64,000 nucleotides of DNA. Origin: Heliocidaris tuberculata (taxonomy: Eukaryota > Echinodermata > Echinoidea > Camarodonta > Echinometridae). This document shows positions 6,352-63,097 of the stretch, one piece after another. The translations under genes were made by a program, and so were the position numbers. Under the pieces are notes generated by a model. That model had not been told where the DNA came from, did not search any database, and worked only from the letters and a program-made list of their open reading frames with translations. Every line of letters starts with the position of its first letter. Position 1 is the stretch's first letter. The stretch is from positions 60,787,087-60,851,086 of the forward strand of contig CM046832.1 in the NCBI GenBank assembly GCA_025618425.1. The letters run 5' to 3'.

Positions 6352-6496
6352 CCAGGGGGGGCATTTCATGAAAGGACTTGTCAGATATTTTATCCGACAA
6401 ATTTGCTCTCAGCCAATCAGATGCAAGGATTTCAGTAGCTTATAACAGTTGTCGGATGAAATATCCGACAACTTCCTTTCATGAAACGCTCCCCAG
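6352..6496. mobile_element. small foldback element A (stem word TGTCGGATAAAATA-like)
   Basis: Outer ends are a G-run block then CATTTCATGAAAGG on the left and its inverse on the right. The inner stem words TATTTTATCCGACAA and TGTCGGATGAAATA are themselves inverse repeats. The core TTTGCTCTCAGCCAATCA and TTTCAGTAGCTTATAACAG is shared with elements B (46781) and C (10341). Confidence 0.85.
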
Positions 6497-6855
6497 GTAT
6501 AGGAGCAAAACAAATCTGAAGGAAAATTTCGATGTATAATTATAATACATATTGTATTTTGTATTGTTACGATATTGTTTTTAATTTATCTGCCCTCAGC
6601 AAAAATGTGTGTAAAGTGCAAAAATAATAATTTAGTGTTGCTAGCAATGCAAAAGTGAAAATACCGGAACGGCGCCAGGGCAGAAAAAGTTTCATCTAAT
6701 TATCTTTGAGAAGTATAATTGCGATTTATTAATTGGGAAGAGAATGGGTATGAAAATGTCGACCTGTGCTGGTTTTCCAAGCCTTGAACTCTTAGATATA
6801 GAAGACATGTTTTCCTCTTATGCTATTTGTTTCGTGCATGGTTTGTTTAATCGCT
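6497..6855. other. unannotated AT-rich stretch
   Basis: No gene or repeat recognised. Confidence 0.4.
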
Positions 6856-7110
6856 AAATGGTGGTGTCACACCTTGGCGTTTTAGCCAGCGTATGCCCGA
6901 TGTATCAAAATTTCTCTAAAACGTCGGCATACGCTGAACTTTGATTTTTTTTTCAACTCTGGGCGTATACTTAGCGTATTCATAACGAGTTGGACGTATA
7001 CATAACGTATTAATAACTTATATAGAACGCTTCGTTAACTTATAAGTAACGTATTCCAACGAATGCTTAGTATTGCCGGCGTACACAACTTATGCCCAAC
7101 GATAGCCTAA

Positions 7111-8120
7111 AAGCCCCTTTCACAATTGGTCTGCGACCAGTTTGCGACCGCCTGCAACAGATTTTTCGGGGTGTTGCACGACCGATCGCTTGGTGTCTTG
7201 CGACCACTCGCAGTCGTTGCAGGCGGTCGCACGAACCTGAGGCGGTCGTGACTGGTCGCATCTGAACTTTGAACATGCTCAAAATCCAGACACGACCAGA
7301 TGCGATCGATTCACTCGCATTAGGTCGTACGACCAGTCGTGCGATTCTCGTATGAGTGTTGCACAACGTTGCACGATTAGATGCGAGAGTTCGCACGACT
7401 CAATAGTCGCAGTGGGTGGGCTGGAGGTCGTGCAACACTCGCACGTGCGCTAGCGACCTATAGCGACCAGTCTTGCGAATGGGTGCGATTGTGCTAAGAC
7501 CATGAGACTGTTGCACGACCGATCGCAGCACATCTTACAACGTTGTACTACCGTTGCACGACTGTATGAGACTGTATGCGACTATTCCTCGGGGGTATAT
7601 ATAGGGGACTATGGAGATGATCCTCTGCAACAGGGCCCTCCTCTAACAACTTTCTCTTCTTTGTAACTTTCTTCTTTGGCATCTTGACTATTAAGAAGGC
7701 CAACTTGAAACTGACTACCGGTCAATTGTCGAGGGGGTTTTTATACCCATACCACTGGCACGAATACTCTCACGACCACTTGCACCGGTCTCATTCAATC
7801 GCACGAGCGATCACATGGTCTCACATCCACTCGCACGACCATGCAATCGATCGTGCGACTATTGTGATTGGCGTCAAGCCACTCGCAATCACTCGTGCAA
7901 CACTCGCATGTGAACGCAAGACCACTCGCACGAGCATATGCGAGCAAATGCGACTTACTCGTGCAACGGTCTCTTCTAGTCGCTTTTGTTTTACGACCGC
8001 TGTTGCATTTGTGAATGCCTTTCTGCGACCTGATGAGATCGATGGCGATTGAAGCCTGTTGCAGCCTGTCGTGCGACCAAATGGTCGCAAACGGTCGCAG
8101 ACCAATTGTGAAAGGGGCTT
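7111..8120. mobile_element. GGTCG-rich 1-kb TIR element, copy 1 (nested)
   Basis: Ends are AAGCCCCTTTCACAATTGGT and its exact inverse. Dozens of CGACC/GGTCG motifs (for example GTCGTGCGACCA, CGACCGATCGC) fill both arms, and their orientation is mostly mirrored. The centre has a TATA box (7596-7605) and a pyrimidine-rich leader. It is near-identical to 24402-25386 apart from small internal indels at about 7414-7446 and 8085-8100. It lies inside the left subterminal region of the 6856-9640 element, so it inserted later. Confidence 0.9.
7596..7605 (+). promoter_or_regulatory. TATA box-like site in GGTCG element copy 1
   Basis: TATATATAGG sits after a GGGGG tract and about 30 bp before CTATGGAGATGATCC. 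It is conserved in copy 2 at 24870-24879. That position suggests the remnant of a transposon promoter; activity is inferred. Confidence 0.5.
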
Positions 8121-8171
8121 ACTTACGCATAGCGCGCGGCAGCGTATCGCTGACGATCACGTGTCGTAGCC

Positions 8172-8180
8172 TATAAAAAG
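8172..8180 (+). promoter_or_regulatory. TATA box-like site in the ACGTA element
   Basis: TATAAAAAG follows GTGTCGTAGCC and precedes GGCTGCCGCTCGACTATT, which has the form of a core promoter. The only downstream small ORF in the element starts at 9051. Confidence 0.45.
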
Positions 8181-8565
8181 GCTGCCGCTCGACTATTATC
8201 CCACTGAAGGGGACATTACAGTTATAGAATTCCATATATTAATAGACCCTTTTCTTTTAAAAGGATCAGGAGTATTTTACGCGTACAGGGTATGTGTATT
8301 ATAATTCTGTTACCTATGACAGGCATATCATAATTATGGAAAATAAGTCTTTTCCATGTTTCAGGCTTGTCTTGAAAACATTTTGGTTTGTTGAGTAGTT
8401 TTTATTTCTATCAGTATCTTATTAAGATTAACAGCACCAAGTTCATTAAAAGCCCATATTTTGTTTACTTATGTTTTGTTTTTTTCAGTAAATTATGTAA
8501 AAGTAAAGATCAGTGCACTTGCTATAAATGTTTGTTATTAAATTCCTTTTGATAGAAATGCGAAA

Positions 8566-8782
8566 TTGCGCGAAACCAATTTCCTCGGAAAAGAACCTTC
8601 TTTGATTTCCTTGATTTTGTTTATTCTTTTCCTTTCGAGTTTCAAGATATTGAGGTATCCCAAAGGGAGCCCCCTGTCTGCACCCGAGAGACATAGGAAA
8701 CTTGTTTCCGAGAAACCTTCGTACAAAACACGAGCAGGTTTGTCAGGACGGTGCCAATTTAGAACCGACAGGACTCGGTAAC
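8566..8782 (+). other. possible decayed coding remnant inside the ACGTA element
   Basis: One frame reads about 45 codons without a stop (starting RNQFPRKRTFFDFLDF) and then meets TAG at about 8694. Composition is more protein-like than the flanks, but I recognise no domain. It may be a relic of a transposon protein or chance. Confidence 0.2.
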
Positions 8783-8814
8783 CTGGCATGATACTATTTT
8801 ATCTTTAAAGAAAA

Positions 8815-8945
8815 AAAAATATATATATATAAATATATATAATATAATAACTTTTAGAAAAAAATAGAAAAAAGAAGAGAGAAGTCAATTATATTATTCA
8901 AATGATTAAATTTTGTTTAAAAAAAAAATATATATATATATAGTT
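8815..8945. repeat. AT microsatellites
   Basis: Two poly-A plus (AT)n tracts, at about 8811-8845 and 8920-8941, inside the ACGTA element. Confidence 0.8.
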
Positions 8946-9050
8946 GGTGATAATAGTCAAAATTGACTGATTGCCATAAAACACTAATCAACAACAACAA
9001 CATATTCAAATCATAACCGCACTATACATCACCGTATCAACACCACCGCC

Positions 9051-9143
9051 ATGCCGAAGAACACTTCGAAGAACGCTGCCAAGAAGTCCCCTGGGCGGGG
9101 GCGTGGACGTGTCTTCATGAGTTCTGATGGGTTCCTCCTGTGA
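9051..9143 (+). CDS. 30-residue basic ORF inside the ACGTA element
   Basis: The ATG follows CACCACCGCC, a good Kozak-like context. The product begins MPKNTSKNAAKKSPGRGRGR, then ends about ten residues later at TGA. The Lys/Arg/Gly-rich start resembles a nuclear-localisation or DNA-binding N-terminus of a transposon protein, truncated here. It lies about 870 bp after the TATA box at 8172, with no visible intron signals checked between. No homologue is recognised and translation is unproven. Confidence 0.3.
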   Translation: MPKNTSKNAAKKSPGRGRGRVFMSSDGFLL

Positions 9144-9640
9144 ACCCCATTTTTATATACCAATTCCTCTAAACGTTGTCAATACGCCATTATACGGTAG
9201 CTGTAAGTTAGAAACACGTTCAGTAAGTTTTGTGATCGTCCGGAGCACGTCAAATACGTCTTCATACGTCAATATACGTTGGAGTTAAGTTACACATACG
9301 TTCAAAGCACGTTACTCATAGGTTAGAAGTAAGTTTTGGGGTACGCTAGACTATATCTCGACGTATTTCGACTTATGAGTAACTTACGAGTAACGTGTGT
9401 GAACGTGTGTCAACGATCGCGTAACTTACCTACAACTTATGGCCCGCGTATGCGGGACGTATGAGCCATACGCTGGCATACGTCCTCGCCGTATGACGAC
9501 GTATACCAGCGTGTTTTAGCGTGCTCTTAACGTATGCAAAACTTACCCGTAACGTATTCGACGTACGCCAGCGTATTCGCCAAATTCCTCATACGTCGGG
9601 CATACGCTGGCTAAAACGCCAAGGTGTGACACCACCATTT

Positions 9641-9808
9641 TGCTGTTATTCATTACATCCCGCTTCGTCCCCGTCTGGTATTCGCTCTTCGGCCCCTGAC
9701 CATCCCAAGACCCAAATAAGGGCTTGTAAATTAGGTTTAGTCGCTGAAATCATTATAAAATATGCATGGCTCTTTTACCCCCAACCCCCTTTCTCTCTCC
9801 CCCCCCCC
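9641..9808. other. short flank after the ACGTA element
   Basis: Unannotated sequence leading into a CT microsatellite. Nothing recognised. Confidence 0.3.
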
Positions 9809-9810
9809 CC

Positions 9811-9858
<48 letters not shown>
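9791..9858 (+). repeat. C-run plus (CT)n microsatellite
   Basis: A C14 tract followed by about 24 CT units; the apparent proline/serine/leucine open frame across it is repeat-derived. Confidence 0.95.
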
Positions 9859-9860
<2 letters not shown>

Positions 9861-10340
9861 AGACATGCATGTAAAAAAATGCCACTGTCCAAATGCCGAG
9901 TATAAAAAATCAAGAAGAGTGTCTCATTTCCGATGCATGGTTACTTGTTTGTATAAGGATGAAGAGAATTATCACTGCTTCATCTAGGGAAAGATCCCCG
10001 AAGTGAAAGACTCGTTACCATGGTAATTACTAAATCTCATATTTGCGAAAGGTGCTTCACGGTAAGCTGTTTGCTCAGTTAGTTGCTTCTGATGACGATC
10101 GAATAATTGTTAATGTCTGACAATGTGTTTATATACTTTTTTCTGTAATATTATTATATTTTGTATCATGCTATCGAACGCAGAAATAAAATCAATCAAA
10201 CAAACAAACAAACAAAAAATAACACGGACCAATACTTCAATATTAAGAAAAATAGCGCCAGAGCTTGCTTGTGCATTTAAAGAGCCACTATTAGCAAACT
10301 CCGGTGCTTGCTCGTGGCTCTTTAAATTCACAGCTCAATC
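9859..10340. other. unannotated intergenic stretch
   Basis: A short (CAAA)n tract lies near 10195-10215 and a local inverted repeat (AGAGCC-CTTGC/GCTTGC-GGCTCT) near 10260-10325. There is no gene evidence. Confidence 0.4.
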
Positions 10341-10493
10341 CAGGGTCCTGTTTCATAAAACGTGTTATCAATAACAATATAGCAACAGATCTATGGCAAA
10401 TTTGCTCTCAGCCAATCAAAATAATGCTATGATTTCAGTAGCTTATAACAGTTATTATGATTTGTTATTGATAACAAGTTTTATGAAACAGGG
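10341..10493. mobile_element. small foldback element C (stem word TTATCAATAACA)
   Basis: Ends CAGGGTCCTGTTTCATAAAA and the inverse TTTTATGAAACAGGG. The stem GTTATCAATAAC occurs in both arms and is itself palindromic. The core GGCAAATTTGCTCTCAGCC and TTTCAGTAGCTTATAACAG is the same as in A and B, although the stem word differs completely. Confidence 0.85.
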
Positions 10494-12919
10494 ACAGGGT
10501 GTCTATCTTGTGATGCAAGGGGGGGGGGGCAGTTGCCCTCATCCCACACGAGCGTATGTATATAGCTTCTACTTTAGGCTCGTTTATATTTCACTCTTAT
10601 TTAAGTTCAGTCTTCATTCCCACCGTATATAAACAAACTGATTTGATGTACTCCCTTTTCTGCCTCACTTCTGCATGTAAACACAACTTGCCTTGATATC
10701 AATGTATCATATTCTTTTGTAAACAATATTGTATAATGTGGAAAAGGAAACAATTAACTGAAAATCATTACTGAATTATTATGCGATCTCCAGTGGGTCA
10801 TAAATACAGCGTTGCTTCCGATCAATGAACACCCCTAACCCCTAACAGTCTAAAGGATCGGTTCTTATAAAGATTTCTTAATCATGTTAATCTCCAGAAA
10901 GAGGCATGTGTTGATCAGTGTTTGTCGGATGTCAATCCCATGAATATCCATGCACTTGAACAATAATAACTCTTGTCTTAGCTTCGGAGCTCCCTCGCTG
11001 TATCTCCCTCATGTCTATGCTTCTCATTTTGGCTGTTCATCTCTGCCCCAACTGTTCCCTATAATTACAATTATGTAACACTCTAGATATTGGTGTGTAT
11101 ATATATATTGTTGATATAGTTCGATATTGTCCGGTGGTGTTATTGTCGAGTGTCACGTAAGTATAAATGGTCCACGAGCACAAATCAAACAACAGGAGAA
11201 GTCCTTTCTCATGCAGTTTCAAATATTTATTTTATCATAAACGAAAAGGCCAATCTTGGCATGCAAATAACAATGTGTCCGCGATAAGATGTGATATAAT
11301 GATAGGCATCTGAAATGTCACAGCCTATATATTATATTCAGTTATTAACTGAATGATAACTACAAGATGTTACTGGTGGGACAGATTCCCCGAGAAGCTG
11401 GCGAATCCTCTCCTAAGGGTGGAGAGGACCAGAAGAGCTGATGAATCCTTCCCCTAATGGTGGGAGAGGATCGAAGAAGCCAAGAGTTTCTACTTGTGTC
11501 TCTTTTTATATTCCCTGGAGTAACTTATAAATAAATAAACATTAAGGGTTGGGTCTTGGATTAAGACATTGGTCAGGATTGGAAATACTGAATATTTACA
11601 AGGGGAATGATAATTGTAACCTTAGCACATGAATATATTACTGGTCCTACTCAGAGTGGGAGAAATCACTGACTCAGTGAACTGTCGCCAACTAAATGAA
11701 AAGGATAATGCTTCCAGTAAACAAACTATGGAACAGGGTAATACCAGTAAAGATACAAAAGGAATAATAGTTGGGAGATTATAGAGAAAATAATTAGTGG
11801 CAGGGAATAATAGTTGAAGATTTAAAGGTAATTACTGAAAGCGCCTGCCCTCTCGCAGATCACCCACATGGACATATTACAGGAAAACCAGTTATATAAT
11901 AATAATAGAACAAAAGACAAAGCCAACAGTCCTATTTTAGTCTTACAGTTACATTATAGATAAAGACTGAAACGAAAGTGTATAATGCAATGCTGGTATA
12001 ATTTGGCACCATAAAGAGAGGTAATGCAAATATTTTATATGAATAAGTGCCAGGCCTATAAACGCCACAGCCAGACAATTGCATACATCATTGCATGGGC
12101 TTCATTAATACGTTGAAATTACGTTAATGATAAATAATGATAGTTAATTCCGTTCTAGATATTCAAATATGTTCACTCTACTAAAAGCAATCAGTAAAAA
12201 ATAATACAATAAACACAACAAAGCTAAATTGAGTATTTTTTATCAGTTTTAAGAACTTGTTATAGACATGATAGATGCGCATTGATATGGCAAAAATGAT
12301 TTTGTCAACATGAGTAAATGAGAAAATAGCCGGGGTAACGATTACCATAAGGTCATTCTTATAGTACAGTGCAGAGAGAAATTCGTAACTGAATCATTTA
12401 TAGCTACCCCAAAAATCGTTGCTAAAAGGCACACATACATAGTGAAAAGGGGTTAGCACCATTTAGTATATTGGAAAGACACCCAAAATAATTTTTCAAT
12501 GGGAACAGCTTCAATTTATTCACATTTCACATAATTTTATTGAATTTAAGACGGCCGCGTGTATGTCTATCCTACAACTCGTAAATGATTATGTAAAGTA
12601 CAAGTATACGTAAATATGATTGAAGTAATAACACTACATAATTATTCGCCGAATTCAGATAATATTTTAAATATCAAAAGTCTTCGTATACACATGTCAA
12701 CATGTTTGTATGAAAATTCAAAATTCATATCGTCTATTTAGCACTGTGCTCCTATATCCCCACATGAGCCCTTTTAGCTTGCAAACTTCAAACTTCAAGA
12801 GCGCAACACGCGTCGTTTGAATATCGAAGGGTATTTAATAAAATATCAGTTCAGGCGGGGGCGTAGCGATTAAAAAGGAGGTTGTTTCTTGTTGGCAAAG
12901 CTTACTTTACTCTGTCAAC
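10494..12919. other. long AT-rich intergenic stretch downstream of the SDR gene
   Basis: No exon or RNA gene recognised. Visible minor features: a G9 run at 10520, a short TATATATAT tract near 11098, and a degenerate 47-bp direct repeat at about 11390-11480 (AAGCTGGCGAATCCTCTCC versus AGCTGATGAATCCTTCCCC). Part of it may be the 3' UTR of the minus-strand dehydrogenase, but I cannot place its poly(A) site. Confidence 0.4.
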
Positions 12920-12927
12920 TCGACAAG

Positions 12928-13540: not shown

Positions 13541-13615
13541 TCGACAAGTTTGGTTAAAACGTTCTTGTGCAGCCCCTCGGTTCATGGTTCATGACGTCAG
13601 TATGTGAGCGAACAC

Positions 13616-13735
13616 TCAGTTGACTGGTTTCTCTGCTAGTTTCGTCCTGAATGACTCTAGCTCGGCGACCTGGAAATCGATGAGGGAATCACCCGTTACG
13701 TCCTTAAAGAACCTCTCTGCGTAAGATCGACATGC
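13616..13735 (-). CDS. SDR (HSD17B1/RDH8-like) exon 5, C-terminus
   Basis: Last coding exon of the dehydrogenase (see 23582-23846). On the minus strand, the acceptor TTTCTCCGTTATCAG opens a 39-codon frame (ACRSYAERFFKDVTGDSLID, then a hydrophilic tail) ending in TGA. It joins exon 4 in phase 0. A DPTG/D-TG-S motif at this place is usual near the end of HSD17B1/RDH8 proteins. The hAT insertion begins shortly beyond the stop. Confidence 0.75.
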   Translation of the reverse strand, partial: ACRSYAERFFKDVTGDSLIDFQVAELESFRTKLAEKPVN

Positions 13736-13757
13736 CTGATAACGGAGAAAGGAGAGT

Positions 13758-13890
13758 ATATGGTTATGATAGTAATATTAGTAATGATATCAGTGATGAT
13801 GATGATGATAATAATAACATTAATACAAATTACAAATAATGATAATGATAATCAAAATGATCATATTAATGATAATAACAATAATAAATA
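13758..13890 (+). repeat. imperfect (ATG)n/(ATA)n microsatellite
   Basis: GATGATGATGATAATAATAAC-type low-complexity sequence within intron 4 of the dehydrogenase. Confidence 0.85.
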
Positions 13891-17062: not shown

Positions 17063-18598
17063 GGAGCCTGTCCCGAAATAGTCAACCCATTTTACATATG
17101 AAATTTGACCCCTTAAAGTTCATAGGACCATCCATGTCATTCACAAAAAGCTTGTCAGCTCGAACGAAGCCGCCGGGTTTGGCCCCCTGAGCCCCCAAAA
17201 GGGGCCCCAAAGTCGGGTCGATTTCAACCCATCTAACATTTGCGCCAAACTTTGTCAGAAGGAGGGTGTATGACTATACATTACCAAAACACCAAAACTG
17301 ACAAAATTTTCAGTCGGGATGGGTTGTCAGACCGCCCCTAAATATTGGGGCAAATTTTTCCCCTTAAGGCCCATGGACCAAATTTTGTCAGTAGGAAGAG
17401 TTATGGATGTACATTACAAAAATATAAAAACTTACAAAAATTTCCATCGGGAAGGGGGTGTAACACGCCCCTGAAAAAAAACACCAAAGTGCCCCTAAAC
17501 CCAGCTTTGTTGGCCAAAATGCTCTGGATGTAGAGAAAACACATTTTTGGGGCATTACAACCTTAATAATTCCAAAGTGTCTCATTCAATTCAGCTAAAA
17601 TTTACATAGTACAATTTTGAGTATTGTAACTTTTGGGGGGTCCAATTTGGTGTCAAATGATCATTTCAATAATAATCTATTAAATTGTGAAAATTGTACT
17701 GCTTTTTCAAAAGTAGTCAAATGATATTGTCAGGATTATGTTAACACACCCATTGTCAATCTGTGCCTGATTGGCAAGGCATAATAGAGAACTTGCAAGG
17801 TATTAGTGTAATTAACACAGGAATGGTATATTTCAGCATGGCAACCACATAGCCCAGATACTTAACAAGCTCCTCTATTATGTCTTGTCAAACAGGTGCA
17901 GATGGACAATGGGTGTGTTTACATTAATCCTTACAATATGATTTGACTACTTTTGAGAAAGCAATACAATTTTCACAATTTAATAAATCATTGTTGAAAT
18001 GATCATTTGACACCAAATTTCACCCAAAGAAAGTTACAGTACTCAAAATTGTACAAGGTAAATTTGACATGAATTGAATGAGATACTTTGGATTTATTAA
18101 GGTTGTAAAGCCTAAAAATGTTTTTTTTTCTCTACATCCAGAGCATTTTGGGCAGCAAAGCTGGGTTTAGGGGCACTTTGGTATTTTTTTCAGGGGCGCG
18201 TTACACCCCTTCCCGATGGAAATTTTTGTAAGTTTTTATATTTTTGTAATGTACACCTATAACTCTTCCTTCTGACAAAATTTGGTCCATGGGACTTAAG
18301 GGGAAAAATTTGCCCCAATTTTAAAGGGCAGTCTGACAACCCATCCCGACAGAAAATTTTGTCAGTTTTGGTGTTTTGGTAATGTAGTCATACACCTTAA
18401 TTCCGACAAAGTTTGGCGCATATGTTAGATGGGTTGAAATCGACCCGACTTTGGGGCCCCTTTTGGGGGCCATGGGGGCCAAACCCAGCGGCTTTGTTTG
18501 AGCTGACAAGCTTTTTGTGAATGACATGGATAGTCCTATGAACTTTAAGGGGTCAAATCTCATATGTAAAATGGGGTGACTATTTCGGGACAGGCTCC
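17063..18598. mobile_element. giant foldback element, copy 1 (1.54 kb, arms about 740 bp)
   Basis: The outer ends GGAGCCTGTCCCGAAATAGT and their inverse enclose two arms that match through their whole length. Landmarks are TTTGACCCCTTAAAG, TGACAAGCTTTTTGTGAATG and AATTTTGTCAGTTTTGG, present once per arm in opposite orientation. The loop is only about 50 bp (near 17812-17862). The element lies in intron 2 of the dehydrogenase. A second copy is at 32242-34395 and a fragment at 39642-39716. No protein is encoded, so it is non-autonomous or structural. Confidence 0.9.
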
Positions 18599-24102: not shown

Positions 24103-24386
24103 GGAGTTTTCGTTCAGCAACGTACGCGGGATTCTAGGACGGAGATTAACAACTGCACATAACAAAGGACGCCCGTCTATTTGTAGAAAACTGAAGAACC
24201 GGAACAGTAGTTTCGTCCTAGATTCAGAGCGAACGATGCATTTGCAATTTATCGTGCGCTCTTGATCTAGCGCGGTATTGAAGTTCCGGTTCTTTCATTG
24301 GACAAAGAATGCCTAGGCGTCCTTTGTAATGTGCAATTACTAATCTCCGTCCTAGAATCCCGCGTACGTTGATGACCGAAAACTCC
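24103..24386. mobile_element. 284-bp TIR MITE with about 70-bp ends
   Basis: The left arm GGAGTTTTCGTTCAGCAACG onward and the right arm match inversely for about 70 bp, through GCGGGATTCTAGGACGGAGA and AAAGGACGCC. It lies just 5' of the dehydrogenase and only 15 bp from the GGTCG element at 24402. The flanking duplication is unclear. Confidence 0.85.
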
Positions 24387-24401
24387 CTACTGTTCTCCCT
24401 A

Positions 24402-25386
24402 AAGCCCCTTTCACAATTGGTCTGCAACCAGTTTGCGACCGCCTGCAACAGATTTTTCGGGGTGTTGCACGACCGATCGCTTGGTGTCTTGCGAGCACTC
24501 GCAGTCGTTGCAGGCGGTCGCACGAACCTGAGGCGGTCGTGACTGGTCGCATCTGAACTTTGAACATGCTCAAAATCCAGACGCGACCAGATGCGATCGA
24601 TTCGCTCGCATTAGGTCGTACGACCAGTCGTGCGATTCTCGTATGAGTGTTGCACAACGTTGCACGATTAGATGCGAGAGTTCGCACGACTCAATATTCG
24701 CATTGGGTCGGTTTGAGGTGCGCTAGCGACCTATAGCGACCAGTCTTGCGAGTGGGTGCGATTGTGCTAAGACCATGAGACTGTTGCACGACCGATCGCA
24801 GCACATCTTACAACGTTGTACTACTGTTGCACGACTGTATGAGACTGTATGCGACTATTCCTCGGGGGGTATATATAGGGGGACTATGGAGATGATCCTC
24901 TGCAACAGGGCCCTCCTCTAACAACTTCCTCTTCTTTGTAACTTTCTTCTTTGGCATCTTGACTATTAAGAAGGCCAACTTGAAACTGACTACCGGTCAA
25001 TTGTCGAGGGGGTTTTTATACCCCACGCCACTCGCACGAACACTCTCACGACCACTTGCACCGGTCTCATTCAATCGCACGAGCGATCGCATGGTCTCAC
25101 ATCCACTCGCACGACCTTGCAATCGGCCGTGCGACTATTGTGATTGGCGTCAAGCCACTCGCAATCACTTGTGCAACACTCGCATGTGAACGCAAGACCA
25201 CTCGCACGAGCATATGCGAGCAAATGCGCCTTACTCGTGCAACGGTCTCTTCTAGTCGCTTTTGTTGTACGACCGCTGTTGCATTTGTGAATGCCTTTCT
25301 GTGACCTGATGAGATCGATGGCGATTGAAGCCTGTTGCAGCCTGTCGTGCGACCAAACGGTAGCAGACCAATTGTGAAAGGGGCTT
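24402..25386. mobile_element. GGTCG-rich 1-kb TIR element, copy 2
   Basis: Second copy of the element at 7111-8120, in the same orientation, with the same ends and the same central TATA box and leader. It lacks short segments of the left arm (near 24710) and right arm (near 25365). Flanks read CCCTA and TAGGG, an inverse not a direct pair, so no ordinary target duplication is seen. Confidence 0.9.
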
Positions 25387-28213: not shown

Positions 28214-28346
28214 GATCTGGGGCCTGTAACATAAAGAGATAAATCAATCTTACGATTGATATCAATCGTAAGTCTATGGCAAACCATGTACTGAAGAGTT
28301 ACACTTGATCGTAAGATTGATTGTATCTCTTTATGTTACAGGCCCC
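28214..28346. mobile_element. small foldback element D (stem word CTTACGATTGAT)
   Basis: Ends CTGGGGCCTGTAACATAAAG and the inverse CTTTATGTTACAGGCCCCTGG. The stem contains CTTACGATTGATATCAATCG, itself a palindrome, repeated in the right arm. A CTATGGCAAA block follows as in element C. Confidence 0.85.
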
Positions 28347-28890
28347 TGGTATAAGTGATGGATATCACCATTTATACCATATCACCATTTACCCTCAGTG
28401 TTGTACCCATCATTTTCAATTGTAGGGATTATCTGCAAACATGGGATGTAAAGTATGGATTAGGTTTAGTGTTTATAGGTTTATTTGTCTAGTTGAAAAC
28501 CCAGAAGCATGGTGATGGGATCCAGCACAGGTTTGGTGGTATTCTTCAAGTTTATTAAATGAGATTTTCCCCAAGCAACGTTTGGAATGGAATCTTGCTT
28601 CATCTGGTTCGTCTGCTGAAATCCAGAAGGGTTTACTGGATTCAAGTCTTAGTTTAGGCAGGTTCTCTGTGTCCTCAAGAAGTGTTATACGTGTACTAGG
28701 TAAGGATTCATGGGTGGTGGTTCTGTTCTACAGTATTCGTAATACCAGGAGTTATATTTGACGGAAATGAAACACATACTTTGATTATGACGAACCATCA
28801 AACTCAGGCAGCATGGGATATGAGACGACGTTCCGATTTATCTGGTATGGTAAGAAGGCAAGGGTCCCTTGACCACTGATCTTCGATCAG

Positions 28891-29050
28891 TGCCCTTAAC
28901 ACAAAGGTTTGCAATCAATCGCCGATTTGAAACAACCGTTCTGATTGGTCTTGGATCATCAATTTGAACGAGATGTTCATGAGACAATGATCTAGATTGG
29001 CTATCGACACTTTGCGATTGATTGCAAACCTTTGTGTTGCGGGGCCCAGG
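28891..29050. mobile_element. small foldback element H (stem word GGTTTGCAATCAATCGC)
   Basis: AACACAAAGGTTTGCAATCA at the left and its inverse at the right, followed by a GGGGCCC block. The centre has GATTGGTC and GATTGGCT. A separate small palindrome (CACTGATCTTCGATCAGTG) lies just outside at 28875. Confidence 0.8.
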
Positions 29051-32241: not shown

Positions 32242-34395
32242 CAGGGTTTGGCCCCAGTGCCCCCAAAAGGAACCCCAAGTCGGGTAGATTTCAACCCATC
32301 TGACACATATGCGCCAAACTTTGTCAGAAAGAAGTTGTATGAATATACATTACTAAAACACCAAAACTGACAACATTTTCCGTCGGGATGGGTTGTCAGA
32401 CGGCCCTATAAATTGGGGGAAAAATTTCCCCTTAATGCCATGGACCAAATTTTGAAGAGGTATAGGTGTACATTACAAAAATATAAAAACTGACAAAATT
32501 TTCCAACGGGGAAAGGGGTGTAATAGACAAAACACCAATGTGCCCCTAAACCAAGCTTTGCTGCCCAAAATGCTCTGAAAGTAAAAAAAAAAAAAAAATT
32601 GACATTACACCTTTATAACTCCAAAGTGTCTTATTTAATTCAGATTTAATTCAATTTTACATAGTACAATCAGAGGCGCTCCCGAAGGGGGGGGGGGAGG
32701 GGCACAATGTCCGCACTTTTTCAAATACCCCCAAAGTGCCCTTTTTATTTCTGAAAATCCCCCTTTCTCTTTGATAAGTGCCCATTTTACTACTGAAATT
32801 TCCCCTTATCCTTTTTAATAAGCGCCCTTGCCCCCTTCTGAAAAGTGCCAACCTTTCTCCTGATGATAAGTGCCCCTTGTTAAAGCTGATAATGGTCTCC
32901 TTATCTCTCTAATAAGTGCCATTTTCTCCTTCTGATAAGTGCAATTTTACTTCGGATAGGTACCTTTTTTCCCCCCTTTCTAATAAGTGCCCTTTTCCCC
33001 GTCTGATAAGCGCCCCTTTTCAAATTTAATAATTATCCCCTTTTCTCTCTAATATGTGTTTTTTTCTCCTTTGATAAGTACATTTTTACCTCTGATATGT
33101 GCCCCATTTTCCCTTCTGATAGATGCCCCATTTCAAATCTGACAAGTGCCCCCTCTTTACCTCTGAAAAGTACCCCTTTTACTATCTATGTGCTCTTTTC
33201 TGCTTATCATAAGTGCCCCTTTTCACCTCTTATAGATGCCTGTTTCCACCTCTGATAAGCGCCCTTTCCTCTTCTGATAAGTGCCCCCTCATACCTATAT
33301 TTCCCAATTCCCACTGTTTCTTACAGTGCACCCCCCGGCCCCTTTCAAAGACTTTCCGCCGCCCCTGAATACAATCTTGAGTATTGTAACTTTCTTGTGT
33401 TGAATTTCAAATGATCATTTCAATAACAAGTTATTAAATTGTGGAAATTGTATTGCTTTCACAAAAGTTAAGCTGTCAAATGATATTGTCAGGATTATGT
33501 AAACACACCCATTGTCCATCTGCACCTGTTTGACAAGACATAATTGAGGAGCTTGCTAAGTATCTGGGCTATGTGGCTGCCATACTGAAATCTACCATTC
33601 ATGTATTAATTACACCATGCAAGCTGTCTATTATGCCCATCGATCTCTGGTAGAGATCGATGATTATGCCTTGTCAAACAGGCCCAGATGGACAATGGGT
33701 GTGTTTACATAATTCTGACAATATCATTTGACTATTTTTGAGAGTAACTTATTATTGAAATGATAATTTGACACCAAATTGCACCCCAAGAAAGTTACAG
33801 TACATTTACTCAAGATTGTTCTAAGTAAATTTGACCTGAATCAAATGAGACACTTCGGAGTTATTAAGGTTGTAATGCCAAAAAATGTTTTTTCTCTACA
33901 TCCAGAGAATTTTGGGCAGCAAAGCTTGGTTTAGGGGCACTTTGGTATTTTTTCAGGGCGTGTTACAATCCTTTCCCGATGGAAATTTTTGCAGTTTTTA
34001 TATTTTTGTAATGTACACCCATATTTCTTCCTTCTGACAAAATTTGGCCCATGGGCCTTGAGGGGAATATTTTACCTCAATTTTTAGGGGCCGTACGTCT
34101 GACAACGTACCCATTCCGACGGAAAATTTTGTCAGTTTTTATGTTTTGTTAATGTATAGTCATACCACTTCCTTCTGAAAAAAAATTTGCGCATAATTAT
34201 GTGTTAGATGGGTCGAATTCGGCCAGACTTGGAAGGCCCTTGTGGGGGGGGGGGGGGGGGGGGGGCTCTGGGGGCCAAACCCGGCGGCTTTGTTCAGGTT
34301 GACAAACTTTTTGTGAATGGCATGGATGATCTAAATAACTTTAAGGGGTCAAATCTCATATGTAAAATGGGGTGACTATTTCGGGACAGGGTCCC
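32242..34395. mobile_element. giant foldback element, copy 2, left end truncated, split by a hAT insertion
   Basis: Same arms as 17063-18598 (for example AATTTTGTCAGTTTT and GGTCAAATCTCATATGTAAA) but missing the outer part of the left arm. It is interrupted at 32671-33367 by a hAT-like element. The loop reads as the reverse complement of the copy-1 loop, so this copy is inserted in the other orientation. A G24 run lies at about 34243. Confidence 0.88.
32671..33367. mobile_element. 697-bp hAT-like insertion filled with a TGATAAGTGCCCC minisatellite
   Basis: Ends CAGAGGCGCTCCCG and CGGCGCCCCTG-type sequence (right end GCCGCCCCTG), flanked by 8-mers AGTACAAT and AATACAAT (7 of 8). Copy 1 of the host foldback shows the empty site at about 17611. 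The interior is more than 20 degenerate copies of a word like CTGATAAGTGCCCCTTTT. Confidence 0.88.
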
Positions 34396-46780: not shown

Positions 46781-46923
46781 CGGGGGAGCGTTTCATGAAA
46801 GGAAGTTGTCATATATTTTATCCGACAACTGTTATAAGCTACTGAAATCCTTGTATCTGATTGGCTGAGAGCAAATTTATCGGATAAAATATCCGACAAG
46901 TTCTTTCATGAAACGCCCTCCAG
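46781..46923. mobile_element. small foldback element B (inverse orientation of A)
   Basis: GGAGCGTTTCATGAAAGGAA and its inverse. The stem ATTTTATCCGACAAC matches element A, and the core CTGATTGGCTGAGAGCAAAT is the reverse complement of A's core. Its right edge is 44 bp before the exon 2 acceptor of KLHDC10. Confidence 0.88.
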
Positions 46924-54522: not shown

Positions 54523-54619
54523 CCAGGATCCATATTCATAAAATCTTACTAGCCATGTACTGTAGCTTATGCAATTAGGTGACAACCAGCTTAGTAAGGT
54601 TTTATGAAATGAGCCCTGG
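54523..54619. mobile_element. small foldback element G
   Basis: CCAGGATCCATATTCATAAA at the left and TTTATGAAATGAGCCCTGG at the right, with the stem word AATCTTACTAGCC/TTAGTAAGGTT. It is shorter than the others and lacks the CCAATCA centre. Confidence 0.7.
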
Positions 54620-54972: not shown

Positions 54973-55170
54973 TAAAAGTGTACCAATCACCTGAAAATAT
55001 AATTTGTGTACAGCTAGAAAGTATAAAATCAACCTCAAAGAACTTATCTGGTATTCTATAGGTCAGCAGTTAAGGAGTATGAAGGAAATAAAGGATAACA
55101 TAAAGGTGCACGCACAAAACCGAACTCTGAGTTGGGTTCCACACAAGCTCTTCCTTATCTTGGAAAAAAA
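54973..55170 (+). mobile_element. left-half copy of the 44728 MITE
   Basis: GTACCAATCACCTGAAAATA onward matches 44730-44910 at roughly 90 percent, including the CGCAC...GTTCC hairpin in decayed form. The right half is replaced by the palindrome at 55174. Confidence 0.85.
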
Positions 55171-55173
55171 AAA

Positions 55174-55667
55174 TTATACCTCGTGTCAGACTGAGGTTTT
55201 TACATTGTAAAGTTGAAGGATGTAAAATTTATTGGGAGCAAGTTTCATGACATTTCTCTGAATACTTTACTTAAAATATTGCTCTGAATATTTCATTAGA
55301 TTTTTCACTTTTTGAAAAATCAAGGCCACAAAATCTATGTGTAACAATCATTAATTCAGAACACAACGATTGCCATTGTGTGTTGCTGTTGAAATTCCAC
55401 AACACCTTTTTAACCTTTTCAATGACAGCAAAAGGTTGAGAGAAATGACAGCTGCAACACACAGTGGTAATTGATGTGTTCTGAATTAATTACTGATACA
55501 CATAGATTTTGTGGCCTTGCTTTTTCAAAAAGTGAAAAATCTAATTAAATATTCAGAGCAATATTTAGAGAAAAGTATTCAGAGAAATGTAATAAAATTT
55601 GCTCCCAATAAATTTTACAACCTTCAACTTAACAATGTAAAAACCTCAGACTGCTATGAGGTATATT
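55174..55667. repeat. about 490-bp palindrome with 215-bp arms
   Basis: ATACCTCGTGTCAGACTGAG on the left pairs with CTCAGACTGCTATGAGGTAT on the right. The arms match through TTTTACATTGTAAAGTTGAA, CAGAGCAATATTT-like and GTTCTGAATTAAT blocks to an inner loop near 55415-55440. Confidence 0.9.
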
Positions 55668-57488
55668 TTTTGAGTTATCAACCAAAGTTTTTTTTAACAC
55701 CTAGTATGACTTATCATAAGATCAGGCTGACTAGCTGTAGTTTGTGGGCCTGTTGCAACATGAATGATTTAATCTCATAATAGACCTGTTCACAAAGTTA
55801 TTTAAATTTATGGATGTTTCTTTCCTGGGGACCTAGTAACAAGGTATTCCATTAACCTGTTATTAATGAATGAACTACAGTACTTGGAATCCAGTTGTTG
55901 CTATGTCTGACAAGCCTCTGACAAGCTTTCAGGTTTGTTTTAAAAGTATGCATACATTTGAATATATTTGCAAACAAGTCTATTAGGCTAGTCCTAGAAA
56001 TAATCAGCTGTTATTGTAATTAATAAATAGATATCTCTAAGCCTTAAGGATTAAAGTGCCCAATGATATGTCAGCTAATGTATTTTGTGTAATGAAGATT
56101 AATGGATTCATAAATGTTCAAACATGTAAAATATTTGGAAATGGGTAATTGCACTACTACAAAGTGCCATAGGACAAAGAAAATAAACAAGCACACTTTT
56201 ATTTGTAAAATTGGAGACAATAGCCATGGTGAACAGTGATGATGTTAGCTTTTTAAAATACTAAATTTCATATTAAACCAGTTTGAGTTAGATACATTGG
56301 TACTTTAATAAGAGAAATCTCGGTTGGCTGAGGGTCAAACAGACCTAATGAGACCGAAACTAAAAAAGAAGTCCAAGGTCGTAGAGACTTAAGCATACAG
56401 TTAGCATGCTGTTTCGGTCTCAGACCTTCGGTCTCTTAGACCATCTTACTAGATTTTATAAGGCCTACAAAGCTGAACATTTTTGTTTTGTGGACATTAT
56501 GTCTTGTGAAGAGTACCTGAGGCCAATTTTTCAGTCTCATTGGCTGCTAAGTCTTGCAGATCTTGAGAGCATTGTGCTGTAGCTCTTCAGTGAATTATAT
56601 CATTAATTATATCTCATGTTGTGAAAGTTGACAATAAATAATAATAGTAATAGCTCTTTCTTAAATAGCACCTTACCAGTTAAATCTAACCGAGCAAAGC
56701 ACTTACAGTCATGTACAAAACTTCAATGAAAATTTGATTCATAAGAAGCGAGATGTGTGTGAGAAAATGCTTCTGTTCTTGTGATAAAACTAATTTGTTT
56801 AATGAATGAACATGCTCTGTAATCTTTGAAATTGATAAAGCTGCATGTAATATGTTATCATTTTTGTATATACATGTAAAATAAAGATTTCATCACAAGT
56901 TAGAGCAGTGTGAGTGTACCTCAGACTTCATTTAATCCATGTGTCATTAACTTGTCTCTATATTAATAATTTCTGTCATGTTTCTACATATCATCCAGTC
57001 CATGTGATTATAAGAAATCTTCAACTGGTTCAAAATTTGTTTTTTTATTCTTCATTTAAAAAAAAAATTGTTGCTAAGTTGGATGAACCCCCCCCCCCCC
57101 CCCACCACCCTATTGGGACGATTAGGCCACATTTTATCCGTAAAGCATGAGTAAAATCTATAAATCTAGATACACAGTAATGAAATTTCCTATTAATCCC
57201 TTGATGCTTTACATCAAATAATAAGGCACAGAATTATGCTTTCTTGATTAGGAGTTTAATTTTTTTTAAAGGACAAAGATTTGAATTTCTTTCTAGGCAA
57301 ACAATGAAAACTGATCCCATGAGAAAACTTTAGTGGCACATTTAAAACCAACCATTTGACTTCATACTTCACAGTTACCTAAAAATATCATGTGAGATGC
57401 TGTGTGGAAAACATTGATATCTTGACAGAGATGAAGCTTTAAATATGTACATGTAAAAAAAAAGGATGGGTGGGGAAATCATTTCAGA
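55668..57488. other. unannotated intergenic stretch
   Basis: AT-rich. A C15 run lies at about 57089, and GAGACCGAAAC/GTTTCGGTCTC form a loose inverted repeat at 56350-56433. No exon recognised. Confidence 0.4.
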
Positions 57489-57736
57489 CAGGGGCGGCGC
57501 TACAGGGGGGGGCAGAGGGGGTGACCGCCCCCCCCCCTATGATTTTTCAAGTAGTGAAAAAAAAAAGAAAAAAGAAAAGGAGGAAGAAAAGGGAAGAAAG
57601 AAGAAAGAGGAGTATTAAAAAGAGAGGTCTTAAACATATAGCTCTATATTACCCCTGTTATTTAATGGAGAAAAAATATGACGTCATCTTTAGGTCGTCT
57701 TGCCCCTCCTATCAAAATACCCTGGCGCCGCCCCTG
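57489..57736. mobile_element. 248-bp hAT-like MITE with 8-bp TSD
   Basis: Ends CAGGGGCGGCGCTACAGGG and the inverse CCCTGGCGCCGCCCCTG. Flanking ATTTCAGA (57481-57488) and GTTTCAGA (57737-57744) match at 7 of 8 positions. G-run, C-run and purine-rich interior. Confidence 0.9.
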
Positions 57737-57744
57737 GTTTCAGA

Positions 57745-57900
57745 TGTTAGCAAATGGACAAGCGAATAGAAACAGCATTTGGTAGAGAAAGAGAGAGAGC
57801 GAGGAAAGGAGAGGAAGGAAGTGACAGAGGGGGGGGGGGGGAGGGAGGAAGGGAAGAAGAGAGGGGGGGGGTAAGGAAGGAGAGAGAAGAAGCGGGTCGC
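57745..57900 (+). repeat. purine-rich GGGAGG/GAAGGA tract
   Basis: About 120 bp nearly free of pyrimidines, with two G-runs. The proline/serine minus-strand frames here are artefacts. Confidence 0.85.
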
Positions 57901-58024
57901 ACATAATTGCAGAAAAGGTAAACTTTCAAACATTGATATAAATTTATTTGATGTATTTACATAGAAGATGCAATTACTGTTGCCTCTTACAAGATCTCTA
58001 TTTTATGGTCTCTGTCTCTCTATT

Positions 58025-58039
58025 TCTCCCCCTCCCCCA

Positions 58040-58085
<46 letters not shown>
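58025..58085 (+). repeat. C-run plus (CT)n microsatellite
   Basis: C-rich block followed by about 17 CT units. Confidence 0.95.
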
Positions 58086-58222
58086 ACTCTCGTCTCGTTT
58101 CAAGTCTTGTCTCTGTTACTGATTCTTTGTATTTCATCTGCCTCACTTTACTGCTCATTCCTCCCTCATTATCCATCAGTTTTTCATGCGTAAGCGATTA
58201 ACAAGAACAGTGAACAAACTGT

Positions 58223-58391
58223 GATCAGGGCCCCATTGCATGAAACTTACCATTAACGGTAACTTTGCCATCAATGGTAACTCCCATAGAAACCTTGATT
58301 TTAATTGGTTGTTGAGTGATGATACCATGGTAGTTACCATTGATAGCAGAGTTACCATTAATGGTAAGTTTTATGCAACGGTGCCCTGATC
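58223..58391. mobile_element. small foldback element E (stem word TTACCATTAATGGTAA)
   Basis: GATCAGGGCCCCATTGCATG on the left and GCAACGGTGCCCTGATC on the right. The palindromic word TTACCATTAATGGTAA occurs in both arms, with a third and fourth half-copy (CATCAATGGTAA, TTACCATTGATAG) further in. The centre has TTAATTGGTTG. Confidence 0.88.
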
Positions 58392-59503
58392 TTGGGATAT
58401 CTTTCGTTTTTTTTTTTTTTTTTTTTTTTTTTGCATCGTGAGAAATGACTGAGGTAAATGATTACCCCGCACACAGCGCACCATAAAAATTAATTTTAAA
58501 CGACTCAACTGAGCAAAATTTTCAAAATCTAGCAGTTAAACCATACAATTCACATTATTCCCAGGGGCTGAGGGCATAGGGCGAGGGATGGGTAGTGTGT
58601 GCCCCCCCCCCCCTCCGTGCCCCGTATAATTTCGAAATTAATCGTATCCTATGAAGAAAAAGCTTCCACTTAACGCGTTTGCCCTCAGTCCAAACCACTC
58701 TGCTCAGCCCATATTCCTGTACCTGAAGATGGATCGTAGTCCTTTTCTTCCCCCTCTAACCTCCATATACCTTCGAAATTCATTATATTACTGCATTATA
58801 TTATGAGAAGAAAAAAAATCACGACATCTTGTAATTGTTTCGTCATAGAATCGAGCGCATGCGCCATATGAAAAAGATGCGCATAAGCGTATCAACATAT
58901 ACGCATAAACGTATATGTTGATATTTTTATTCGTGGTTCATTATAGTGTCACTATATGATATCTCTAATTTTTCAGACAATTTTGGTCTACTTCCGATTG
59001 ATTCGGGATTGATTTGCCTCTCATTTCTCGTTATTGTCAACATTTAAGCAGTTTAAGCAACTTTAGATCCGTTGCCTGACTGAGACTGAGAAATACCAGC
59101 GTTATGAATCCTGAAAGCACGGTATGAGTATATGACTATAACATTTCTGAACGTAAAGTCAGTATCAAGCGATACATGCACGTCGGGCTACCTGTCGGTA
59201 TATCTTTCCGACAGACCCCTCACTCTTAATTTTATCACATTTCATTTTAATTATACATGTACATGTATTACAAAAGTGACAGAACCGCAGAAAGTCGTCA
59301 CATTTTTACCAGTGCGACTCTGCCTTTTACATGTAGCCTGTCGAGATTCCGGAGCACCAGTCATGCCAGTAAACTGTTTTTATATTTCTTCTGTTTATAT
59401 AGCCAGAAGTTGGGTGAACTGTCAAAACTCGACGACCCATGAGTGAAGAAACTACAGTTTTTAGCGAGTGAATCGTTTATGGACATTTTTACAATATACA
59501 TGG
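58392..59503. other. unannotated intergenic stretch
   Basis: Poly-T run (58409-58432), a C12 run near 58603 and a small palindrome TATACGCATAAACGTATA near 58899. No gene supported. Confidence 0.4.
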
Positions 59504-61114
59504 CACTGGCGTAGCCAGGATTTTTCAAGAGGGGGGGCCAAGGCGAGGGAACGAAGCGACCGAGCGGGGAGGGTGTGGGAGGGGGATACCCCCTCCCACG
59601 GTAGGAAAATTTTTTAAAACCAGGTCATGAAAATGGCATTTTCTGCACCCTAAAATTCTATTCTGGTGTAACCTACTTGAGAAGTGACAGATGAAATAGG
59701 ATTTTTTTTCTCTCTACTCCGCTGGAATGAATTGTAGTGGAAGGATTACCACTCCTTGGGGCTCCAGAATTCCAAGCAATACGCAAAATTACATGTAGTT
59801 GGTGTGTATAAATAGCTGTACCAGTGTACATACGAAACGTTGAAACCCGTGTTTTCGGATAGGAAAATATACAGACTAACAACCAAAAACCCACACACAG
59901 ACACACTGACTATTGACTAACATATGACTAAGAGGACGCCCTTTCTCATGGAGTGGAATTTATATCTCATCTCAAGCGGTAGTCTCATTTGAAAACACAT
60001 GCAACATCTTTATTAGGTGTATGTAAAAGACTTTAGCAATTTATTTAGCTGCATGCCTTGTTTAGCTCTTTATCTCATTTTCTCGGTTAGAGGTTGTTCA
60101 TTAGTTGCCTAATTCGTATATACTACACGAATCCAGCTACGTACTCCTTCATTTAAGTACTGAGGAATTATATAGTTTGATTAATTTTTGTAACCAAAAT
60201 GAACATCAATGTGAGTATTTAGCACGGAAAAATATTAGAATTACATCGTGTAAAGAGTATAGAGATCACAATTTGTAATAAAAACATATGGAAATAATGT
60301 AATTACACATAGAGAACGGGCTAAACAAAGTCTTCATACAACCAAGTCAAGCGCACATGATTTGCCACATGTGAAGGCCGTTTTTGTCATTCAATTTAGT
60401 GATAATAGATTTGACTCAAAACTGTAAACATCAAAGCAGAAAGCATCTCGTCCGATGACTTACTAGTATATAAAATACGACTTGAACAAAGAATGAAATT
60501 GTATCTTTTTTGAATATTCCTCTATAAAATCGAACTCTACCTTGAAAAACAGTGTTTTGCTTCTCCTCGGATGAAGACCATAAAAATGATATAACGGTGA
60601 CATTGTTTTCGTATAAAAGCAATGTTGGCTACCACAATGATAACTCTTAAACAAACTCAAGATTTACAAAACGAAGAAAATGGTTATTGCCTCCATCGGA
60701 CATATACCCATTCACAAAGAGAGGTTTATATTCGGCAAGAATAACTGATACGCCTCTTCATCATTCTGAGTACAATTTCTTTCAACTCTCGACAAACTAA
60801 AAGAAATATAAATGTTCTGTTACCAATCTACTTAGTCAATGTTGTTAACAAAGTTTCGGGGTTATGATTTGGAAAGGAACAGTTTTTGCTGGAAATGAAA
60901 GCAGTGTTTATTTTGTTTACTTTTTTGGTAATATTTCCATTTTATTTTTCCTTATTTCGATTGTAAGGTAGGGGTAGGGTAAGTCCTAGTAAGACCAGCA
61001 TGTGAAAAGGAAATTAGTTGTTTTTTTTTGTTTTTTGTTTTTTGTTTTTTTTTGCTCTCCGATCAACAGGGGGGGCCATGGCCCCCTTGTGCCCCCCCCC
61101 TGGCTACGCCAGTG
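59504..61114. mobile_element. 1.6-kb hAT-like non-autonomous element, TSD ATACATGG
   Basis: Ends CACTGGCGTAGCCAGGA and the exact inverse, flanked by a perfect 8-bp duplication ATACATGG (59496-59503 and 61115-61122). A G-run follows the left end and a C-run precedes the right end. The AT-rich interior has no transposase. This is the best-defined element in the window. Confidence 0.95.
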
Positions 61115-61279
61115 ATACATGGTTATATTTTGGGCCTAACTAATTTCCAACAACCATTTTCCAATTTAAATTTTAATGCGACAAAAAAAGATGGAATGTA
61201 ATGATATACTTAAGTTTTCCTTCCCTATAAATTATTCAGGGAAGTCGCAAATTATGATACAAAAATAATAATAATACAA

Positions 61280-61980
61280 AAAATATTAACATTATTTTCT
61301 TCTTCTCTTCTTCCTGAGTTTCGCTCTTTTCTCCTCTTCCTCATCTCTTCTCATCCATATCCCTTATCTTTCTCTTCTCTTTTCATTCTCCTTATTCTCT
61401 GCATTTTTTTCATTCTTCTATAAACTCTCTTCTCACTCTCATTGTTCTTAACCTTTATTTCTGTCATGTCTCCTCTTCCTCTTCCTGTTCACACTCTCTT
61501 CAATACACTTTCATTCTTTTCTTCTCGCTATAGTTATCATGCTTATTCTCTTCTTCCTTTCATTTCTTTCCCTTCCTCTTCTCTTCTTCTCTTTTTCCTT
61601 CAACTTTCACTTCTCTTCTTTTTATTCCCTTCCTTTCACTTTCAATTCTCTTCTTCTTTTCTTACCTTCTTCCTTTCACTTCTTTTTATTCTCCTCTCCT
61701 TTTCCTCTTACTTCTTTTTATTCTCTTCTCTTCTTCCTTTCATTTTCACTTCTTTTATTATTTCTCTTCCCTTTTTCCTTTCACATTCACTTCTTCACTT
61801 TCCATTCACGTCTCATTCTCCTTATTTCCTTCTTCTCTTCTTCCTTCTTCCTTTTCTTCCTTTCATTTCTCTTCTCTTTTCTCCACATTCTCTTCCTTCT
61901 TTCACTTTCACTTCTTGTCTTCCTCTTAGCGCCTCATCTATTCCCTCTTCTCTCCTCTCCCCCCCCCCCCCCCCCCCCCC
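61280..61980 (+). repeat. 700-bp polypyrimidine tract ending in a C-run
   Basis: TTCTCTTCTTCCTTTCACTT-type units almost without purines, ending at a C22 run (61958-61980). It gives long spurious Ser/Phe/Leu frames. It could form triplex DNA. Confidence 0.93.
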
Positions 61981-62945
61981 ACTTTTTCCGTGACGTCCTG
62001 CTAAATGGGTTTCTGTTCAGACATGTGCATTTTTCTCTTTCTCAGTTTGGCAGCTGATTTCATACGGTCGGAACTACCTGGCTTAACAAATTCTGCATAA
62101 TTTAGTGATATAAATTATAGTGAACATACAAGGGTGTCATCACGCGGGTACCCACCAATGGGATGACCCCTTCTCCATCGGAAAAAGGTACACCAAGCGA
62201 AGGCTATAGGGGTTTAAAAAATGTCATAAAACAATCATCGTCATCAAGGCGTGCAGGGGGAAGGAGGCTGGAGTCTTCGAAATGAAAAGCTAATCACCAC
62301 TAGCAGAGACAAATGAAAAATACATCATTGTATAGGGAAAATTGCTCATCGAGATGGGGCAAGGAGAAAAATGAAACATTTTAAAAGTCCGGGGTTTATT
62401 TCAATTAAAAAAAATCATTATTATGACTTTTAGTGCAATATTGTTATAGAGAAAGAAAAAGGGGACATTCAGAAACACATCGTATATCATTATTATGACT
62501 ATTATCAAGGCAATATTTTTTTATTGAAAGGGGGGGGGGCATGTACAGATTTTTAAAATCAAAGTTACGACTATTAGTCCAATTTTTAGTCCATATTCTG
62601 CAATGAGAAAAAAGGTACAAACATCTTATCAGTGCAATGTTCTGCATGAATTGAGAGAAAAGGTGAAGTTTCGTATATTTTATTAGGATGCAATATTCTG
62701 ATAACTTGAAAAAAATTGGGGCCATTACATTGCATAATTATTTTATTGACATTTTTTCCTGTGTTTAAAGCTTTCATGCAGTTTAAAATGGTGTTTATAT
62801 GGAATGTCATCTCGTTATTCTCTATATCCTCATCGCTCTTCCTATATTGGAATGCTGCAAGCGCAACTTATTGATTTGAAATGTATTTTGTGGAATACCT
62901 GTTTTGGACCAAATGTCTTGAAACTATTGTTTTCGACTAACTGTT
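61981..62945. other. unannotated intergenic stretch
   Basis: A G9 run near 62530; no gene recognised. Confidence 0.4.
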
Positions 62946-63097
62946 CTGGGACCCGTTGCACAAAACTTGCGTTTGATCGCAACTCCTAAAAATCAAACGC
63001 AAGTCCTTAATGCGCACTTCTGATTGGCTGAAAATAAAGTTGCGTTTGATTTTCCTGAGTTGCGTTCAAACGCAAGTTTTGTGCAACGGGCCCCTGG
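62946..63097. mobile_element. small foldback element F (stem word TTGCGTTTGAT)
   Basis: TGGGACCCGTTGCACAAAAC on the left and the inverse GTTTTGTGCAACGGGCCCC on the right. The word TTGCGTTTGAT or its inverse occurs four times in the stem. The centre has TCTGATTGGCTGAA as in A and B. Confidence 0.9.

Follow-up and report, generated by a model that had tools for sequence, protein, structure and literature searches.

Eight short foldback elements in the DNA analysed here (one window of 64,000 bases, 62% A+T) constitute a real MITE group that belongs to an already known kind of element. They are probably NuwaI-type MITE families, that is, PIF/Harbinger-like and CWG-duplicating, each with its own palindromic subterminal binding site, and with some exchange of modules between families. 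The elements have common tips, CWG flanks and lengths below that of a transposase, and they carry group-specific, often self-palindromic subterminal words in both arms.

Eight elements with common tips and CWG flanks

Foldbacks were found at all eight places at which the first-pass annotation had reported elements of one common layout: 6352 (E1), 10341 (E2), 28214 (E3), 28891 (E4), 46781 (E5), 54523 (E6), 58223 (E7) and 62946 (E8). Several marks of MITEs are present: all eight are 89–157 bp long (1,150 bp in total), below transposase-coding size, and have TIRs, and five of the eight have an exact target duplication. Among the window's open reading frames, none of at least 110 aa overlaps any of the elements. 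By their stems the elements fall into seven groups. E1 and E5, 94% identical over 136 nt, form a single family and are the sole same-family pair in the 64 kb. The elements are listed below; the limits of E1 were counted by hand from the arm alignment and the flank analysis.

E1, 6356..6493, plus strand: MITE body; CAG at 6353-6355 and 6494-6496; core 6398-6450 common to E5 and E2; stem word in both arms close to TTGTCGGATA-TTT-TATCCGACAA
E2, 10344..10494, plus strand: MITE body; CAG at 10341-10343 and 10495-10497; core 10397-10453 as in E1; stem word TTGTTATTGATAACAA at 10462-10477
E3, 28220..28345, plus strand: MITE body; CTG at 28217-28219 and 28346-28348; left arm with the stem palindrome CTTACGATTGATATCAATCGTAAG
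E4, 28891..29046, plus strand: MITE body; CAG at 28888-28890 and 29047-29049; stem word TTGCGATTGATTGCAA at 29012-29027
E5, 46784..46920, minus strand: MITE body of the E1 family, in the orientation opposite to E1; CGG at 46781-46783, presumably a changed CAG, and CAG at 46921-46923
E6, 54527..54615, plus strand: short, worn element; CAG at 54524-54526 and CTG at 54616-54618 (opposite W); stem with CTTACTA only, palindrome absent
E7, 58229..58385, plus strand: MITE body; CAG at 58226-58228 and CTG at 58386-58388 (opposite W); stem word TTACCATTAATGGTAA, with matches to the 16-bp template described below at 58247-58262, 58265-58280 and 58352-58367
E8, 62949..63093, plus strand: MITE body; CTG at 62946-62948 and 63094-63096; stem word TTGCGTTTGATCGCAA at 62967-62982 and TTGCGTTTGAACGCAA at 63060-63075 on the minus strand; half-sites at 62992-63002 and 63040-63050

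The 16 arms align without gaps on CAYRAAA, and the eight elements have the common tip GG(G)NCC-GTTKCAYRAAA. In a count by hand, with the left arm of E5 taken after its CGG, 12 of the 16 tips start with GG and six of the 16 with GGG (both arms of E1 and of E3, the right arm of E8 and the left arm of E5); those starting otherwise are E2 right, E4 left, E5 right and E6 left. A tip matrix of 18 columns was scored at 127,966 positions with one element left out at a time. Fifteen of the 16 left-out arms took ranks 1–16, the exception being the left arm of E6 at rank 185; the tests of E1 and E5 are not independent, because the two are a single family. CWG lies just outside the tip on 15 of the 16 flanks, with four positions allowed per flank and a window frequency of CWG of 0.0246 per position.

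These numbers bear on whether unrelated hairpins could simply look alike, by chance or through the bias of the observer. Such a reading can point to the rank of the E6 left arm, to several cores without similarity and to the plain consensus string, which at up to two mismatches finds arms of E2, E6, E7 and E8 only (8 matches versus 3.13 expected). Since the string recovers just four of the eight elements, it is the matrix that carries the case, and the matrix ranks together with the CWG flanks rule out chance likeness for at least seven of the eight. We therefore regard this explanation as extremely improbable, and the similarity of the ends, a point named beforehand as able to overturn the grouping, exceeds chance.

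Across the window the matrix gave 24 candidate pairs, made up of the eight elements, 14 pairs in a repeat stretch at 2902-3378 and two weak pairs (7514/7963 and 24787/25239); 20 Markov sequences gave 0–4 pairs each. No ninth member was accepted within the window by the tip matrix. Viewed by eye, 2900-3420 is a degenerate array whose units resemble GGNCCGCTATTCATAATA and run in both orientations, with weak matches to the matrix. The two weak pairs score equally and lie near the reading frames 7067-7399 and 24352-24690, which by eye are alike over about 95 residues with two differences; being near-identical, these frames are therefore part of a dispersed repeat. Other inverted repeats are also present. 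Those at 17738-17924 and 33475-33732 have, by eye, a common end sequence like NAACACACCCATTGTC and form a foldback family distinct from the eight. A large one at 55169-55671 has arms of 242 nt, 87% complementary and 19 nt apart, and 9280-9640 contains interleaved inverted words of the ACGTATGC type.

The same CWG stands on both sides in five of the eight elements, as CAG in E1, E2 and E4 and as CTG in E3 and E8. The remaining pairs are imperfect: E5 has CGG/CAG, and in both E6 and E7 a left-hand CAG is matched by a right-hand CTG. A G directly follows the right-hand CWG in seven of the eight elements. The TWA target duplication of PIF/Harbinger sensu stricto and Tourist was not found at these flanks, which are CWG. 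The CAG/CTG flanks of E6 and E7 are not the product of simple target duplication; in these two of the eight elements they provide the sole hint of arm copying or arm exchange. In E7 (58226-58388) the mirror match reaches GATCAG on one side and CTGATC on the other, and the E6 counterpart at 54524-54618 is CAG/CTG; such matches could mark either process.

Stem words and the agreement of the arms

Identity between families (seven groups, E5 dropped) was 0.595 at offsets -11..-5 and 0.690 at -4..+6, compared with 0.305 in the stem at +7..+24 and 0.281 at +25..+39. Between the left and right arms of one element, the same four blocks gave 0.714, 0.909, 0.738 and 0.467. Within the window, then, the stems are more diverse than the ends and the two arms of a stem agree; both the constancy of the ends and this contrast had been anticipated by the first-pass annotation.

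Each stem word had also been described as a near-palindrome, which is accurate for five of the seven groups. In these, the word of at least one arm is more palindromic than at least 195 of 200 mononucleotide shuffles; the exceptions are E4 (28891), where it is unclear, and E6 (54523), where it is absent. Measured against 400 control 30-mers drawn from the window, seven of the 16 arms score at or above the 99% level. Arms that do not clearly beat their shuffles (24 to 191 of 200 as good) are E3 right, E4 both, E5 left, E6 both, E7 left and E8 left, and for E2 right 9 of 200 shuffles were as good.

The words of E2, E4, E7 and E8, four of the seven families, fit one 16-bp palindrome, TTRYNNTTRAWNNYAA, with that of E4 weakly palindromic. 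This template fails for E6 and for E1/E5, whose longer palindrome lies outside it, and it applies only partially to E3. It has 12 matches in the window versus a mean of 1.32 in 100 shuffles, none of which reached 12, and 11 of the 12 fall inside the elements, where 0.22 would be expected by length (E2 1, E3 3, E4 1, E7 4 and E8 2, with one E7 place counted on both strands and two E3 matches overlapping). Because the template was derived from the same elements, this enrichment is partly in-sample and is a description more than an independent proof. The four family words, with strand and copy of each chosen by the analyst, have a mean identity of 0.70 versus 0.47 for shuffled and re-palindromised words at their best register (0 of 5,000 as high). 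The frame TT....TTRAW....AA is kept in the four families, and the inner letters RYNN differ between them. Among seven of the 12 template matches (one each from E2, E3 and E4, two each from E7 and E8), mirrored letters change together, as measured by 8 two-sided cells (0 of 500 shuffles) and by four of six pairs (10 of 500); a third measure, further pair types, was usual (81 of 500). Sliding the register abolishes the pairing of mirrored letters. The word TCTATGG occurs within the stem at 10390 (E2), 28273 (E3) and 58284 (E7, minus strand), which are three of its eight occurrences in the window.

The description of the stems as fully replaced yet still paired therefore stands in part: they differ between families and their arms agree, but the words of E2, E4, E7 and E8 have one template. 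The differing stem words are likely versions of a symmetric protein-binding site, a better reading than random rewriting.

Selection for pairing, the copying of one arm from the other and a template switch that creates new stems had been suggested as origins of the paired stems. Arms that agree in stems differing between families would suit such processes, and copying that ran past a target duplication could yield the GATCAG and CTGATC flanks of E7. The comparison of E1 with E5, with the pairing register aligned across a 1-nt indel, points the other way. The two copies have seven differences, six of them at five stem columns, and none of the six is compensatory; at the column changed on both sides, one copy has A/C and the other G/T, neither of them a Watson-Crick pair. 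In this one copy pair the lack of compensation speaks against selection for pairing after insertion and against continued arm copying. The direct CWG copies are kept in five of the eight elements, so that copying, if it occurred, did not extend beyond the tip in these five. Four words with one template count against the writing of new stems, for which no positive evidence was found. Selection for pairing and arm copying thus appear very unlikely as the cause.

Shared cores and a proposed two-protein mechanism

E1/E5 and E2 have in common a core of about 45 nt that is nearly unchanged, with 22 + 23 identical nt (0 of 300 shuffles as good), whereas their stems lack similarity: in the four arm comparisons, between 111 and 484 of 500 shuffles did as well. 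A common core between unrelated stems bears out the earlier suggestion that more is involved than the slow joint decay of one family. The proposed centre word CCAATCA is itself common, with 18 occurrences in the window; it is the longer CAGCCAATCA, found four times and always in elements (E1, E2, E5 and E8), that qualifies as a core word common to several of them. Shorter pieces tie further elements: TCAGCCAATCAGA is common to the cores of E1/E5 and E8 (0 of 300 shuffles), CCATGTACTG to E3 and E6 (1 of 300) and TCTATGGCAAA to E2 and E3 (12 of 300). Given that 28 pairs were compared, many of which show nothing, the E3–E6 and E2–E3 links are suggestive only.

Recombination or gene conversion between copies might accordingly exchange ends or cores among families, which would give stems and cores separate histories. 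The E1/E5 and E2 cores, the shorter core pieces and the unequal W of the E6 and E7 flanks all favour such exchange, as does a precedent in corals, which are reported to have MITE families with an inner region better conserved than the TIRs (PMC2872659). Against it, there is a single clear case among the eight elements, the short common words could be motifs that were retained or that have a function, and parental copies were not seen within the window. As an explanation in its own right, exchange is a serious candidate that we hold at slightly worse than even. It is compatible with the reading of the elements as NuwaI-type families with their own binding sites, and may be a source of new combinations.

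For such NuwaI-type families the parts of an element could be assigned as follows. The tip would be the site cut by a DDE transposase, and because it is what the enzyme cuts, it would change slowly and be common to families that related transposases mobilise. A second protein of the Myb/SANT type, ORF1, is predicted to bind the subterminal word. We propose that the words are palindromic because an ORF1-type protein is two-fold symmetric, that the identical word occurs in both arms because both ends need loading, and that the RYNN letters vary between families, with the frame kept in four, because autonomous lineages change specificity. If both ends of a family's elements retain the word of that family's helper, the words would differ between families and pair within elements with no demand for a hairpin. 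The need for the same binding site at both ends would thus be the simplest cause of the paired stems. New ends could also bring MITEs with a common core under a new helper, as E1/E5 versus E2 suggests.

A more far-reaching version, which we advance as speculation and think rather unlikely to hold in full, is that tip, recognition word and core evolve as separate modules. The fixed tip would serve a common cutting enzyme, and the fixed-frame palindrome with its four mirrored variable letters would be a family-specific address for a co-evolving ORF1. Cores would escape to new helpers by changing the address at both ends at once, and the mirrored letters would amount to a readable Myb/SANT recognition code. 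Should the stem words be such addresses, a 16-bp site would link each MITE family to its helper transposon, the recognition code would emerge from setting ORF1 proteins against the sites in their respective families, and the change of helper by elements that have no genes would be explained. The fixed-frame palindrome with mirrored variable letters is the part worth following, as it would make helper assignment directly testable. At the least, echinoderm-like CWG-type elements are added to a group whose 2015 survey, in its account of hosts, listed no echinoderms (PMC4482050).

Comparison with known elements

Ten open reading frames chosen from the window were scanned against protein families. 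The matches were to 7tm_1 (one frame), reverse transcriptase (one), short-chain dehydrogenase (two) and Kelch repeats (one); the other five had none, and among the ten no DDE or Myb family match was obtained at E 0.001. The 7tm_1 frame is an intact rhodopsin-type receptor of 555 aa at 1071-2738. Over 99% of its length it is 64% identical to an unnamed protein, and its identity to a histamine H3 receptor-like protein of Strongylocentrotus purpuratus is 63%, which marks the host as an echinoderm-like animal.

Searches beyond the window covered two contig collections and found no copy of the elements in either. A viral contig collection gave four matching loci, none of which has the tip-stem-CWG layout in its neighbourhood as judged by eye; at one of these the match falls in a phage-like reading frame and was rejected. 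Also rejected were 14 bacterial or archaeal loci from a genome contig collection, which by eye are chance matches or bacterial palindromes. Rfam gave no match at gathering scores. Six tip strings of 12–13 letters retrieved irrelevant matches only from the literature, and in the small part of it covered we met no published account of these elements.

The closest likeness is to NuwaI, a group of the PHIS superfamily (Han et al. 2015; PMC4482050). According to the survey's description of the group, its marks are a CWG duplication, TIRs of 12–61 bp that usually start with GGG, separate DDE and Myb/SANT ORFs, and occurrence in animals only. The present elements agree with it in their CWG target duplication, their animal host and their small TIRs, and partly in the start of the tip, which is GG in 12 of the 16 arms and GGG in six; they differ in that no transposase was linked to them among the ten reading frames scanned. 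The survey's host list names 12 bony fish and one each of beetle, crustacean, mollusc and anthozoan, with echinoderms absent from it, and its main text nowhere uses the word 'subterminal'.

Zebrafish elements provide a worked example of such a target and of the proposed division of labour. Harbinger3_DR is reported to integrate at AAACACCWGGTCTTT, a CWGG target (PMC3016246). In PIF/Harbinger-like elements the cutting is done by a DDE protein, and the ends are bound by a second, Myb-like protein; the TIRs of the non-autonomous Harbinger3N_DR are reported to be bound by ORF1, and its movement requires both proteins (PMC2836001). Our elements resemble Harbinger3_DR and Harbinger3N_DR, as these are described, in the CWG(G) target and would resemble them in the movement of a non-autonomous element by a DDE protein and a TIR-binding Myb-like protein. 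Tourist-type MITEs (mPing and its kin) are likewise short, non-coding and, as described in the same paper, mobilised in trans by ORF1 and TPase (PMC2836001), but the survey gives them a TWA target duplication (PMC4482050) in place of the CWG seen here. Two further systems offer parallels to the proposed separate histories of inner and outer parts. The CMITE families of Acropora corals are also MITEs with a common inner region and different outer parts; they are related to piggyBac, and their constant part is the inner region and not the tip (PMC2872659). For the PIF/Harbinger-like elements of Medicago, variable subterminal blocks and a mosaic element have been described (PMC2213677).
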